Under the pieces are notes generated by a model that worked only from the letters and a program-made list of their open reading frames with translations, made no database searches and was not told the DNA's origin. The position numbers and the translations under genes are program-made. From contig NZ_FXUF01000004.1 of the NCBI RefSeq assembly GCF_900182905.1, forward strand, positions 62,001-126,000: a stretch of DNA of 64,000 nt, given 5' to 3'. The DNA comes from Anoxynatronum buryatiense (GTDB taxonomy: Bacteria > Bacillota > Clostridia > Peptostreptococcales > Tindalliaceae). Of the stretch, positions 1 to 4,610 are shown one piece after another (position 1 is the stretch's first letter; the number at the start of each line of letters is the position of its first letter).

Positions 1-4
1 TGTC

Positions 5-595
5 ATGATCACCAAAAAACCGGAAAAACTCACCGTCATAGTCAATCGGGAGCATCCCCTGCCGGAAGACTACGTGCCGGACAATCTGGTGACACCCAAC
101 GTGTCTGTCATGTATTCCGGCGAAGCCAGCCTGCTGAGAAAAGAGGCGGCGGATGCCCTGGAAGAAATGGTGGCAGCCGCCCTTGAAGCAACAGGGGAGC
201 AGCTGGTTCTCAGGTCAGGCTACCGGTCCTATGCCACCCAGCGATACCTCTTCAACACCAGAGCCAGAGAACGGGGAGAAGCTGTGGCCAACCGATCCAC
301 TGCCCGGCCTGGCGAGAGCGAACATCAAACAGGGTTGGCAGCAGACATCACTTCTCCCAGTGTGAGGCGGCAGTTGACCACCCGCTTTGGCGAAACACCT
401 GAGGGCAAATGGCTCCAGGAAAATGCCCACCACTACGGCTTCGTTCTCCGGTATCCGGCAGGCAAAGAGGAGATCACCGGGTATATCTATGAGCCCTGGC
501 ACTTCCGCTATGTGGGTCATGGCCTGGCCACCCGCCTCTATGAATCCGGTTTGACCATGGAAGAAGAGTTGGCAGAATTTCCATTCGACAGCTAA
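5..595 (+). CDS. D-alanyl-D-alanine carboxypeptidase, VanY/M15B family (possibly 5'-partial)
   Basis: This zinc peptidase is expected to trim the terminal D-Ala from peptidoglycan stem peptides outside the membrane. The M15B signature is complete: SGYRSY at residues 71-76, SEHQTGLAADI at 105-115 (His107 and Asp114 as metal ligands) and EPWHFRYV at 163-170 (catalytic Glu163, ligand His166). The visible protein has 196 residues and begins just before the usual 'NREHPLPEDYVP' segment, with no signal peptide. The frame is open to the left edge of the window, so the true start and export signal may lie outside. Substrate specificity (D-Ala-D-Ala or D-Ala-D-Lac precursors) cannot be read from sequence. 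No vanH, vanA or vanX gene is nearby, so ordinary wall remodelling is likelier than glycopeptide resistance. Confidence 0.85.
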   Translation: MITKKPEKLTVIVNREHPLPEDYVPDNLVTPNVSVMYSGEASLLRKEAADALEEMVAAALEATGEQLVLRSGYRSYATQRYLFNTRARERGEAVANRSTARPGESEHQTGLAADITSPSVRRQLTTRFGETPEGKWLQENAHHYGFVLRYPAGKEEITGYIYEPWHFRYVGHGLATRLYESGLTMEEELAEFPFDS

Positions 596-716
596 ATGAA
601 ACCTTTCAAAATCACTCAATGATGGCTAAAAAGCATGCCAATAATCCCGTGCACGAAAATCTCATCCCTGACACTTGCTAACAACAAAACTTCAACAACA
701 ACCACACTTCATCAAT

Positions 717-758
717 AAAGCCTGAAACCCGCTGCAAAATGGGATTCAGGCTTTGTTG
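717..758 (+). terminator. Intrinsic terminator downstream of the VanY-type gene
   Basis: A 13-nt arm starting AAGCCTGAAACCC (718-730) pairs with GGGATTCAGGCTT (741-753) around a 10-nt loop, followed by a short T-rich stretch. It is the only structure seen in the 338-base gap between the VanY-type gene and the ATPase gene, apart from the ATPase promoter at 852-879. Confidence 0.6.
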
Positions 759-851
759 ATGTGGCTGACAATGCAATAAATACAAGAATTTGGATTGGTG
801 GACATTCATCATAGAACCTTTTTGTACATAAGCCACATCTATAAGCGAAAC

Positions 852-879
852 TTGAAATTATTATAAAATGAAGTATAAT
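852..879 (+). promoter_or_regulatory. SigA-type promoter of the DUF234 ATPase
   Basis: TTGAAA (852-857) and TATAAT (874-879) are separated by 16 bp. A second TATAAT lies at 889-894 inside a short repeat of AAGTATAATAAA. An upstream ATG at 868 lies inside this promoter, which supports the downstream start at 934. Confidence 0.6.
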
Positions 880-933
880 AAAGCAAAGTATAATAAATTA
901 AGTGCCATCCATTGTCAAGGAGATGATAATCGA

Positions 934-2358
934 ATGAACTCTTTCGTGAATCGGGAAGCTGAATTGCAATCATTAGAAAAAGAATACGCAAGAAAAGAAG
1001 CATCTTTTTATGTGCTGTACGGCCGAAGAAGAGTCGGTAAAACAAGACTGATTCAAGAGTTTATACGAAATAAGCCAGCTATTTACTTGATGGCCAGTGA
1101 AGAGATGGAAAGGGAAAACATGCTGCGCTTCCGGGATAAGGTGGCAGATTTCACCGGTAACGAGTTACTGAAACAGGTGACAGAGCTGAACTGGGAGATG
1201 ATTTTTCAACAGCTGGTTAAAGGAAAACCGGAAGGGCGCCCAATCATTGTCATTGATGAGTTCCAATACCTGTCAAAAAGCAACAAGGGATTTCCCTCCT
1301 TGTTTCAGCGCATTTGGGATGAATGTCTCCAACACGAAGACCTGATGCTGATCCTATGCGGGTCACTCATCACCATGATAGAATCCCAGGTGCTTCATTA
1401 TTCCAGCCCACTCTATGGTCGCAGAACAGCTCAGTGGAAATTGAAGCCCATTGGTTTCAATCACTACCATTACTTTTTTCAACAACATCATCAGAGTCAT
1501 CTTCAGATGAAGGACATGGATTTGCTGGCCCAATATGCCGTCACCGGAGGAGTGCCTAAATACATTGAAATTTTTCAGGGAAAGGGCAGCTTGTGGTCAT
1601 TAATTCGCGAAAATATGGCAACCAGAGGAGCTTATTTGCTGGAAGAACCTATCTTTCTCCTGGAAAAAGAAGTAAGTGAAATTGGAAGCTATATGTCAAT
1701 CATGAAAACCATCGCCCACGGTCACCATAAACTGGGAGAGATTTCGGCGGCGCTGAATGTGAAACCTCAGGGCTTGAGTAAATATTTAAGCATTCTGGAA
1801 GACCTGGATTTGATTCGACGCCAGGTGCCGGTCACAGAAGAAAATCCGGCTAAAAGCAAAAAAGGCCTCTATGAGATCAACGATCACTTTATCAAGTTCT
1901 GGTTTTTATTCATTTATCCCTACCGGGAAGAAATTGAAGCCGGGCAAACTGACCAGGTGATGAAGCAAATCAAGGACAGATTTATCGAAAAGCACGCTGC
2001 GTTTGTCTATGAAGAAGTGTGTCGGCAACAACTTCTGGAACATAGTTATTCTACAAATCAGCCATTCAGAATCACCAAAATAGGCAAGTGGTGGAATCGT
2101 CAGGAAGAAATAGATATTGTCGGCCTAAATGAAGAGTCAGGAGATATCATTTTTGGTGAATGCAAATTTACGGAGAAGCCGGTGAGCATGAGAGTATACC
2201 AGGAGTTGCAGCAAAAAGCGGAAAGTGTTCAATGGCATAAGAATCAGCGTCAGGAGTACTTTGTACTTTTCAGTAAATCGGGCTTCACCAACCAAATGAA
2301 AGCTTTTGCGGCAGAGAAGAGAAATGTGATGCTTTGGGAGAGATTAACACTTTTATGA
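934..2358 (+). CDS. DUF234-type P-loop ATPase (archaeal-ATPase-like)
   Basis: The protein has 474 residues. It opens with the 'FVNREAEL' start typical of these ATPases, then a Walker A GRRRVGKT at residues 30-37 and a Walker B 'IIVIDEFQYL' around 105-114. A winged-helix middle region follows ('KPQGLSKYLSILEDLDLI'). The C-terminal half ends in a nuclease-like fold signature, 'EIDIVGLNEESGDIIFGECKF', where a D...E-x-K pattern resembles PD-(D/E)XK enzymes. AAGGAG at 917-922 and the promoter upstream select the ATG at 934 over the one at 868. Base composition is more AT-rich than its neighbours, which suggests transfer. The cellular role of the family is unsettled; defence and mobile-element roles have been proposed. 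The gene is monocistronic here. Confidence 0.85.
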   Translation: MNSFVNREAELQSLEKEYARKEASFYVLYGRRRVGKTRLIQEFIRNKPAIYLMASEEMERENMLRFRDKVADFTGNELLKQVTELNWEMIFQQLVKGKPEGRPIIVIDEFQYLSKSNKGFPSLFQRIWDECLQHEDLMLILCGSLITMIESQVLHYSSPLYGRRTAQWKLKPIGFNHYHYFFQQHHQSHLQMKDMDLLAQYAVTGGVPKYIEIFQGKGSLWSLIRENMATRGAYLLEEPIFLLEKEVSEIGSYMSIMKTIAHGHHKLGEISAALNVKPQGLSKYLSILEDLDLIRRQVPVTEENPAKSKKGLYEINDHFIKFWFLFIYPYREEIEAGQTDQVMKQIKDRFIEKHAAFVYEEVCRQQLLEHSYSTNQPFRITKIGKWWNRQEEIDIVGLNEESGDIIFGECKFTEKPVSMRVYQELQQKAESVQWHKNQRQEYFVLFSKSGFTNQMKAFAAEKRNVMLWERLTLL

Positions 2359-2429
2359 AACCGGGTGCTTGTCTGTTTGTGCATTGCATCTGTCAACAGA
2401 CCTCAATGTGTTCAAGATTGCCAGAATAC

Positions 2430-2435
2430 TATAAT
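2430..2435 (+). promoter_or_regulatory. Possible -10 element upstream of the solitary CRISPR-like repeat
   Basis: A perfect TATAAT lies about 70 bp before the repeat at 2505. The hexamer 17 bp upstream (TGTGTT, 2407-2412) is a weak -35, so the promoter is tentative. If used, it would yield a roughly 130-nt RNA covering the repeat and ending at the hairpin at 2538-2578. Confidence 0.25.
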
Positions 2436-2504
2436 TCTTTGCGAAAAGCTCATTGAAGTTAAGAATAGCAATTGATAAAACGGGTATATCAATGCTTTCC
2501 AAGT

Positions 2505-2533
2505 TTGTTCCCCGCACACGCGGGGGTGATCCC
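2505..2533 (+). CRISPR. Solitary type I-E-like CRISPR repeat (orphan unit)
   Basis: The 29-nt stretch carries the hallmark TTCCCCGC-ACAC-GCGGGG hairpin and the GGTGATCCC end seen in type I-E repeats of Gram-positive bacteria. Only one copy is present: the next bases form a terminator, not a spacer and second repeat, and no cas gene lies in the window. It may be a relic of an array end, an isolated integration product, or part of a crRNA-like regulatory RNA. The match to the I-E consensus is from memory of the family and was not searched. Confidence 0.5.
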
Positions 2534-2537
2534 AATG

Positions 2538-2578
2538 GACTGCCTCTCCATCGATATTAGTGAGAGGCAGTCTTTTAT
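2538..2578 (+). terminator. Intrinsic terminator after the CRISPR-like repeat
   Basis: GACTGCCTCTC (2538-2548) pairs perfectly with GAGAGGCAGTC (2562-2572) and is followed by TTTTATT. It lies 4 nt after the solitary repeat and 180 nt after the ATPase stop, so it could end either transcript. Confidence 0.75.
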
Positions 2579-2670
2579 TGGATTAAATCAGTCCAGCAAC
2601 TGAATAGCTGAAAAGGTGTTACCTTTGCTGGAGGAACAGATGTAATTGACTGGTGGACAATAGCTTTTTC

Positions 2671-2679
2671 TGGTAAAAT
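2671..2679 (+). promoter_or_regulatory. Possible extended -10 promoter of the diguanylate cyclase gene
   Basis: TGGTAAAAT (TAAAAT at 2674-2679 preceded by TG-N) is an extended -10 element 82 bp before the ATG at 2762. No good -35 hexamer stands at 16-18 bp. The rest of the 403-base gap from 2359 holds only the repeat and terminator described separately. Confidence 0.35.
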
Positions 2680-2761
2680 GAGAATAAAGACCTATCTGCA
2701 GTGATTTATCCGAAGAGAAAGTTAGCAGAAAAGCGGTTTAAAACGAGAGGGGAAAACCGGC

Positions 2762-4498
2762 ATGTCTTTATCCGGGCAACAGATTCAGCATATCATACAG
2801 GAAGCACCCATTGCCATTGCTCACCACCGGCTGCTGGTTGATGAGAACGGATTGCCCTGCGATTATGAATTTTTGTCGGTCAACCAGGCCTTCGAAAAAA
2901 TGATGAAACTGCCGTCAGGAAAAATCACGGGGCGCCGCATGAGCCAGCTGTTTCCGCAGATGGCCGGCAGTGCCTTTGACTGGATTGCCTTCGCCGGTGA
3001 GGTGGCGCTGAAGGGTGGCCGTCAGGTGACAGAGCAGCCCATGTTTTCCGATGAAGTCTGGCACCGGGTGGTGGCGGAGTCCGCCGGTGACGGGTGTTTC
3101 ACCTTCTACATATCTGAGATCACCATGGAAAAACGGTTGATTGCCATCTCTGAGAAGTTGATGACAATGCCTCAGGGAGAGTTGGATGCCCAATGGGTGG
3201 CAGATGAGGTCCGGTTTATTTCTGGGGCCAAGTATGCCACCTTTGATCTTTATCGACCAGATGGCCGCTCTTCGGTGACGATGGCTGTAAGTGGCACCCA
3301 TGGTCACGTGGAGAAGGCCTCCCGCATGTTGGGTTTCGACCTGGTGGGGAAGGTCTGGACCTATGAGGAGTCCATGATTGAACGAAGCCGGGGAGCCGTG
3401 GTGCGGGAAGGCCTGCGCATGAAGGATTTAATGGATAACAGCGTGCCTGCGGCTGTTATATATGTGATTGAAAAAACCTTTGGAATTGAAGAAATGGTGG
3501 CCGTCAGCATCGAAAAAGATGAGAAACTCATCGGCGATTTTATATTGATCATGGCAAAGGGTACCAAATTGCAAAATCATAATCTGGTGGAAATCTTTGC
3601 CCGTTTGGTGGGCATGTCTCTGGAACGGAAACGGATTGAACGGGTGCTGAAAGAAAGTGAGGAGAAGTTTCGCTCATTCTTCGCCACGGCACCGGGGGGG
3701 CTGACGATCCGATCTGTGGAAACGGGTGAACTGCTGGATGCCAACCCGGCGGCCCTGGCCATGAGCGGCTGTGATACCCTGGAAGAGATGAAAGGCATCA
3801 ATGAATGGGCGGGCCCTCCCTACACCATGGAAAGAGGCATTGAAATCTTTTGCCAGGCGGTGAAAGAAGGGGCGCAGCGTTTTGAATGGCTGGCCCGGCG
3901 CGCCGACGGCACCATCTACTGGCAGGATGTGCTCCTTACCATTGTGGAGATTGACGGTGTGAAACGGGCCCTGGCCAACTCTCTGGATATCACCCGTAAC
4001 AAAGAAATGCAAAGGGAGATTGAATACCTGAGTTATCACGACCAGCTGACGGGAATGTACAACCGGCGCTATTATGAAGAAACTTTGAATCGGCTGGAAA
4101 AAGAGGGAGGTCTCCCCTTGTCGGTGGTGATGCTGGATGTGAATGGGTTGAAAATGACCAATGATGTGTATGGGCACCAGACTGGTGACAAACTGTTGAG
4201 GCAGATGGCTCAGGTGCTGGAGCGGGTGTGTACCCAGGGGGAAATCTGTGCCCGCATTGGCGGTGATGAATTTGTCATTCTGCTGCCGGAAAAAGATGCA
4301 GCGGCTGCTATGGCCCTGGAAGAAAAAATCTTGCAGGCAATGGCAGCAGATAATGAATCTCCTATTCCACTGCTGGCGGCAGTGGGCTGCGCCACCAAAA
4401 CCCATGAACAGCAGGACGTGCTGGAGGTGCTGCATCAGGCTGAAAGGCGGATGTACCAGCGAAAAGAGGCTCAGCGGGAGTCCCTCACAGATGAATAA
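2762..4498 (+). CDS. PAS-PAS-GGDEF diguanylate cyclase
   Basis: The 578-residue protein is predicted to make cyclic di-GMP from two GTP. An N-terminal PAS-like region (about 1-130), a GAF-like middle part (about 135-290) and a second PAS (about 295-415) precede a GGDEF domain (about 425-575). The active-site motif GGDEF is intact at 500-504. The position five residues upstream that would hold the RxxD product-inhibition site reads TQGE, so feedback inhibition through the I-site is probably absent. No membrane segment or EAL domain is seen, so it is a soluble sensor cyclase. The start follows a purine-rich GAGAGGGGAA. The gene is flanked by a minus-strand operon and appears monocistronic. The ligand sensed by the PAS domains is unknown. 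An HD-GYP protein at 37025-37744 could be an opposing enzyme. Confidence 0.9.
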   Translation: MSLSGQQIQHIIQEAPIAIAHHRLLVDENGLPCDYEFLSVNQAFEKMMKLPSGKITGRRMSQLFPQMAGSAFDWIAFAGEVALKGGRQVTEQPMFSDEVWHRVVAESAGDGCFTFYISEITMEKRLIAISEKLMTMPQGELDAQWVADEVRFISGAKYATFDLYRPDGRSSVTMAVSGTHGHVEKASRMLGFDLVGKVWTYEESMIERSRGAVVREGLRMKDLMDNSVPAAVIYVIEKTFGIEEMVAVSIEKDEKLIGDFILIMAKGTKLQNHNLVEIFARLVGMSLERKRIERVLKESEEKFRSFFATAPGGLTIRSVETGELLDANPAALAMSGCDTLEEMKGINEWAGPPYTMERGIEIFCQAVKEGAQRFEWLARRADGTIYWQDVLLTIVEIDGVKRALANSLDITRNKEMQREIEYLSYHDQLTGMYNRRYYEETLNRLEKEGGLPLSVVMLDVNGLKMTNDVYGHQTGDKLLRQMAQVLERVCTQGEICARIGGDEFVILLPEKDAAAAMALEEKILQAMAADNESPIPLLAAVGCATKTHEQQDVLEVLHQAERRMYQRKEAQRESLTDE

Positions 4499-4610
4499 AG
4501 GTTCTCTGCCAGGCTGAAGGCAAAATTGTGACCACCAGCGACAGCATAACCAGCACAAAACCTCTTGAAAACATTCTATCCGCAGTTCTTTGCGCATGTG
4601 ATTTCCTAAA

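Follow-up and report, generated by a model that had tools for sequence, protein, structure and literature searches.

Type I-E CRISPR-Cas loci with a Cas2/DEDDh fusion, of the Megasphaera type, have been described (available text of PMC10284694). In Legionella pneumophila, recombination between repeats stripped a type I-F array of all its spacers, down to a single repeat that is usually the mutated last one; the same loss of spacers in type I-C is mentioned there from earlier work (PMC7056967, in the portion available). A solitary repeat may also be a Racr-type unit, a reading that calls for a mobile element as well as a system to be targeted (accessible part of PMC10651486). Here, the window, i.e., the whole 64-kb stretch of Anoxynatronum buryatiense DNA that was analysed, carried a lone type I-E repeat preceded by a leader-like stretch and a cas2-like tail, and this combination is very probably the remnant of a decayed type I-E CRISPR-Cas locus.

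The repeat and its distribution

The repeat was located on the + strand at positions 2505–2532, with a length of 28 nt, hairpin arms at 2510–2515 and 2520–2525, and the perfect core of a type I-E repeat. Re-checking the window gave TTGTTCCCCGCACACGCGGGGGTGATCCC at 2505–2533, confirming the sequence and coordinates of the preliminary description, which had counted a unit of 29 nt. The repeat is present, but its proper end is probably at 2532, because a Clostridiales MAG whose arrays have almost the same repeat varies at the 29th base. Unlike several terminal repeats of the arrays examined, its 3′ end was not degenerate.

Pattern searches revealed a single match in the 64-kb window with up to three mismatches (none in 100 shuffles), and again a single match with up to two mismatches in the 4.16-Mb genome assembly (99.8% complete), with none for the reversed-pattern control. 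When all 29 nt of the repeat were compared with the + strand of the window, the second-best position had 11 mismatches. Between 1501 and 4000 nothing further was found on either strand within 12 mismatches, and relaxing the limit to 13 added just a match at 3677 and one that overlapped the repeat itself out of register. The repeat was solitary in both window and genome, where an array would hold at least two, and the earlier statement that the window has no second repeat or array was borne out by the window, both-strand local and whole-genome searches.

A scan of genome_contigs for bases 2506–2533 returned three array-bearing contigs, two belonging to the Clostridiales MAG and the third to a Dehalococcoidia MAG, and bases 2506–2532 were present in the array repeats of both MAGs. 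The 23-nt core was identical in I-E-type arrays of these two MAGs and of G709, and one mismatch away from the repeats of G051, a genome with Cse1. On the MAG contig L100 the open frames were read by eye as I-E cas genes, and its Cas2 was scanned with Pfam. Allowing up to one mismatch, the general repeat pattern occurred in 18 of 393 sampled genomes of the same order, A. buryatiense included (reversed-pattern controls zero), and was absent from the six other genomes of the genus and family that were searched. None of the relatives searched carried the locus, hence the comparison with related genomes proposed earlier yielded no copy and no intermediate.

An exact search of viral_contigs returned nothing for the 26-nt repeat and a single match for the 23-nt core, within a mini-array of two repeats. 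The viral contig IMGVR_UViG_3300028797_000254 (L116) carried, at ~1740–1823, a two-repeat type I-E mini-array with one spacer, adjoining frames that by eye resemble tail genes; its second repeat was 3′-degenerate, and its spacer had no further exact match in viral_contigs. Phage and plasmid records similar to 2380–2640 (2 and 93, respectively) gave short matches only, none spanning 80% of the query. Two further genomes, both without a Cse1 match, contained I-E-like repeats outside arrays. In G356 (contig C130, L035), three dispersed repeats, 319 and 819 nt apart, are possibly solitary repeat units of a mobile element, and in G052 (contig C19, L038/L114) one repeat directly before the tail of an apparent LPXTG surface-protein gene is perhaps another relic.

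Sequences flanking the repeat

Upstream of the repeat and on the same strand, a frame ending at the stop codon 2473–2475 read QDCQNTIILCEKLIEVKNSN and resembled the C-terminus of Cas2-DEDDh fusion proteins. This putative 3′ remnant of a cas2-DEDDh fusion gene spans 2380–2475, its left edge being approximate, and the frame ends ...CIASVNRPQCVQDCQNTIILCEKLIEVKNSN. The end of the tail, VQDCQNTIILCEKLIEVKNSN, aligned with LSDCRATFHLLCKLIEIRDATR in L100 and with MQDCLSTKQVYEKLIDLEQKDK in L118. The reference I-E loci were of the same order and class as A. buryatiense, together with the Clostridiales MAG. In one set of these, the fusion gene stood directly before the array and on the same strand in eight of ten arrays, as it did at further loci, and all three fusion genes scanned contained PF09707 and PF00929. 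From the tail stop to the CCCC of the repeat core there were 34 nt in the window, compared with 34 (L023), 35 (L100), 37 (L117) and 34 (L118) nt in four reference loci; this spacing is not fixed, since nine other loci had 19, 31, 40, 40, 47, 56, 93, 94, and 94 nt.

Every stop-anchored 20-residue segment on both strands was scored gaplessly against Cas2-DEDDh C-termini. The tail ranked first among 4179 segments of the 64-kb window and first among 6096 segments from 94 kb of the A. buryatiense genome (16 reference tails), in the latter case with a best score of 40 against 32, and a mean score of 19.6 against 9.6, for the next independent segment. It was also the top fragment of the window's six frames with an HMM of the C-terminal region, but with an E-value of 0.21; this alignment was gapless over 2380–2466, and a suspected frameshift within the tail was dropped. 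Of 2000 shuffles, 4 reached its score in local alignment to the C-terminal 60 aa, and 70 did so in a less strict six-frame test. When window positions 1–4600 were searched by tblastn with Cas proteins taken from two loci, it came third in the list (E 0.28). L105 and L110 had only short frames, of 130 and 70 aa, whose stops lay 119 and 83 nt upstream of the repeat, and these two loci were omitted from the reference set. Five of the nine Cas2 loci of a second set had been missed by the ORF filter and were later added to the 6096-segment test; L103, with a C-terminus almost identical to that of L101, was excluded from the HMM and from the 4179- and 6096-segment tests and kept in the shuffle tests. 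The histidine found in 16 of 16 reference tails, presumably the catalytic residue, corresponded to proline in the HMM alignment of the tail, as expected for a dead remnant. At 20 residues the match is short, and on sequence alone it is weak; what makes it convincing is where it lies, together with its strand, its spacing and its exact end.

The 29-nt stretch that separates the repeat from the cas2 stop (2476–2504, + strand) would represent the remnant of the leader, similar in length to the leaders of L023, L100, L117, and L118. Against six hand-chosen I-E leaders (L106 cut to its last 30 nt), compared without five repeat bases, the stretch had p-values of 0.0004 for the mean score and 0.0038 for the best score over 5000 mononucleotide shuffles, which control for composition, not for dinucleotides. 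The repeat is adjoined by collinear cas and leader remnants, an assignment in which position counts as much as the score of a short match.

Left of the tail, an ATPase_2/DUF234 gene (868–2358, + strand; PF01637, E 4.7e-31; PF03008, E 4.5e-29) occupied the place expected of the remaining cas operon, and the cas2 similarity began at ~2380, just beyond the end of this gene. Its true start is probably near 934, because similarity to the copy in G006 begins there. The gene had been described as AT-rich, and its GC content was indeed 42%, compared with 53% for the window. The G006 copy was 76% identical, and its surroundings (3.1 kb) lacked such a repeat. Relatives of the ATPase occurred in 16 of the 60 genomes searched (A. 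buryatiense included). A link between the repeat and the ATPase family was rejected, the best 24-nt repeat match outside the window's own having eight mismatches in 21 other loci; the 22 loci examined, out of 30 returned, comprised the window's own and these 21, one of them from A. buryatiense, some being gene fragments and some several loci of one genome. Upstream of the gene, at 850–883, lay a 34-bp element with an 8-bp inverted repeat (TTATTATA/TATAATAA). This element was identical at 34 of 34 positions in G006 (L069), compared with 74% DNA identity for the ATPase gene, and is likely a strongly constrained operator or element end.

With filters off, tblastn with 15 Cas proteins detected no convincing cas remnant to the left of the ATPase gene or beyond the hairpin described below; the best E-values, 0.013 (500–900) and 0.009 (2520–2800), were obtained on tiny targets and were taken as noise over 15 queries. 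Among G001–G006, the flanking GGDEF gene had no clear orthologue (best matches 30–44% identity), and a search for the VanY gene, which had no positive control, gave no orthologue at E 0.001. Because no flanking synteny was found in G001–G006, no empty site was demonstrable.

Downstream, 5 nt after the repeat end at 2532, a terminator-like hairpin occupied 2538–2572 on the + strand. Its perfect 11-bp stem (2538–2548/2562–2572), present as reported before, encloses a 13-nt loop, with TTTTATT starting at 2573; the hairpin could serve as terminator for the old array or for the ATPase gene. A terminator scan of 2300–2800, whose loop limit was 8, gave no terminator-like sites. An RNA starting from a TATAAT had also been suggested: the motif is present at 2430–2435, but a sigma-70-like promoter scan of 2300–2800 gave no sites (0.7 in shuffles). 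The stretch 2505–2578 folded strongly (z −5.3) and would form two hairpins as RNA. Rfam on 2000–3200 returned one match below the gathering score, which was taken as chance.

Cas content of the genome and alternative readings

The A. buryatiense genome contained no match to the type I-E families Cse1, Cas6e, and Cas7e (PF09481, PF08798, and PF09344), each of which matched in two or three of 14 control genomes, with Cse1 also matching in G051 and G119. A search of the genome for a type I-E cas operon, put forward earlier as a check, was therefore negative for these Cascade genes, and the lone Cas1 match lay within a type I-C locus on another contig (controls for the Cas1 search included Escherichia coli, where Cas1 matched). 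Beside the repeat, in place of cas1 and cas2, only the cas2 tail was present. The previous claim that the window holds no cas gene stands as far as Cse1, Cas6e, Cas7e, and a second Cas1 are concerned, for which the whole genome gave no match, but not for the apparent cas2 3′ remnant at ~2380–2475. The type I-C locus (L026 1–12082, contig C12), with a long array starting near the contig end, had Cas3, Cas5, Csd1, Cas7, and Cas4 beside Cas1, and one family of 30 repeat-spacer-repeat units with a repeat quite different from the I-E repeat. A Cas2-DEDDh query had two matches in the genome; the listed one spanned the exonuclease half only, in a 1471-aa frame.

What speaks against a relic is that the repeat has stayed intact beside a tail that has not, that its 3′ end is not degenerate, and that neither further convincing cas remnants nor an intermediate in the relatives searched were found. 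A leader-repeat-terminator unit that was retained after the loss of the cas genes, and stayed intact because it still works as a repeat-mimic RNA or an empty acceptor array, is very unlikely; if true, it would be a host-encoded “Racr” or a landing pad derived from a dead CRISPR locus. A residual function of the remnant is possible, and unsupported. Also very unlikely is a zero-spacer array serving as a landing site, in which leader and repeat could accept spacers if Cas1-Cas2 were transferred in. Both the leader-like stretch and the repeat are there, and a one-repeat type I-F array of L. pneumophila was refilled by a coincident system (PMC7056967, as far as its available text goes). However, the only Cas1 match of the genome belongs to the I-C locus, the listed Cas2-DEDDh match is the exonuclease half, and nothing indicates selection to keep the unit. 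This reading is compatible with a relic.

A Racr-type solitary repeat unit would be the repeat-mimic RNA of a mobile element, titrating Cas6 and Cas7 of type I-E hosts, and two type I-E candidates have inhibited a type I-E system (PMC10651486, in the sections available). Judged by the criteria for solitary repeat units in the same source, the repeat here is a high-identity, intergenic single repeat with no second repeat within 100 bp, and it is intact and has a hairpin terminator. Neither a mobile element nor a target system was found here, the flanks having been read mostly by eye: no phage or plasmid genes were seen by eye in the open frames from ~12.5 kb left to 9.5 kb right, with three flanking genes Pfam-scanned, and the host has type I-C and no I-E match. 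Moreover, no promoter was found, the viral_contigs matches were limited to the mini-array noted above, and a cas2 tail and leader directly upstream would be superfluous for a mimic. Such a unit is highly improbable here.

The single repeat and the upstream TATAAT had suggested a CreA-like antitoxin or another regulatory crRNA that directs Cascade to a gene of the host. CreA-type crRNA-like antitoxins are defined by a cognate Cascade in the same genome, and the Cascade present here is that of type I-C, with its quite different repeat; no match to the three I-E families and no promoter was found, and the stretch that would serve as guide is itself a strong hairpin. The suggestion was rejected, its chance of being right being close to nil. 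A REP-like or chance palindrome, which had been named as a possible refutation and has the hairpin shape and nothing further in its favour, is almost certainly excluded, since REP elements occur in many genomic copies whereas this repeat is present once in 4.16 Mb and never in 100 shuffles, and its match to array repeats extends outside the palindrome.

Probable decay of a type I-E locus and comparison with known systems

The decayed type I-E locus remains the best explanation, and the earlier suggestion of a lost array, of which this would be a relic or the isolated end, gains both support and detail from what is left of cas2 and the leader. The ancestor would have had a cas operon ending in cas2/DEDDh, then the leader and then the array; in G051 the operon order is cas3-cse1-cse2-cas7-cas5-cas6e-cas1-cas2/DEDDh. 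A deletion would have removed the cas genes, sparing only some 30 codons at the end of cas2/DEDDh, and the ATPase_2/DUF234 gene, which now stands at the break, may or may not have caused this loss. The array would have been brought down to one repeat by recombination between repeats or by deletion; given the intact 3′ end of the repeat, loss by simple deletion and survival of a last repeat free of mutations are possible to the same degree. Whatever the order of these events, we infer that the remnant is now inert, except perhaps for termination of the ATPase transcript at the downstream hairpin.

Such a relic is ordinary in kind. It suggests that single-repeat remnants, which array finders would skip, are recognisable by an adjoining cas2 tail and leader. 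These features would tell dead loci apart from genuine solitary repeat units, and could cut the number of false chromosomal Racr candidates.

In comparison with known systems, the locus resembles Racr solitary repeat units (PMC10651486, available sections) in having one intact intergenic repeat without partners. It differs from them in that no mobile-element genes were seen nearby, cas2 and leader remnants lie upstream, the host system is non-cognate and no promoter was found. The collapsed arrays of L. pneumophila (PMC7056967, same portion) likewise retain one repeat, but their cas genes were kept and are of type I-F (or I-C in the earlier work), whereas those of the window were lost too, and the repeat here is not visibly a mutated last repeat. 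The likeness to the Megasphaera-type I-E loci with a Cas2/DEDDh fusion (PMC10284694, in the available text; L023, L100, L117, and L118) extends to the repeat type and the cas2/DEDDh C-terminus. Unlike these loci, the window has no other I-E cas gene that could be found, but the cas2 tail, leader and one repeat that it keeps stand in the same cas2-leader-repeat order and with the same spacing.
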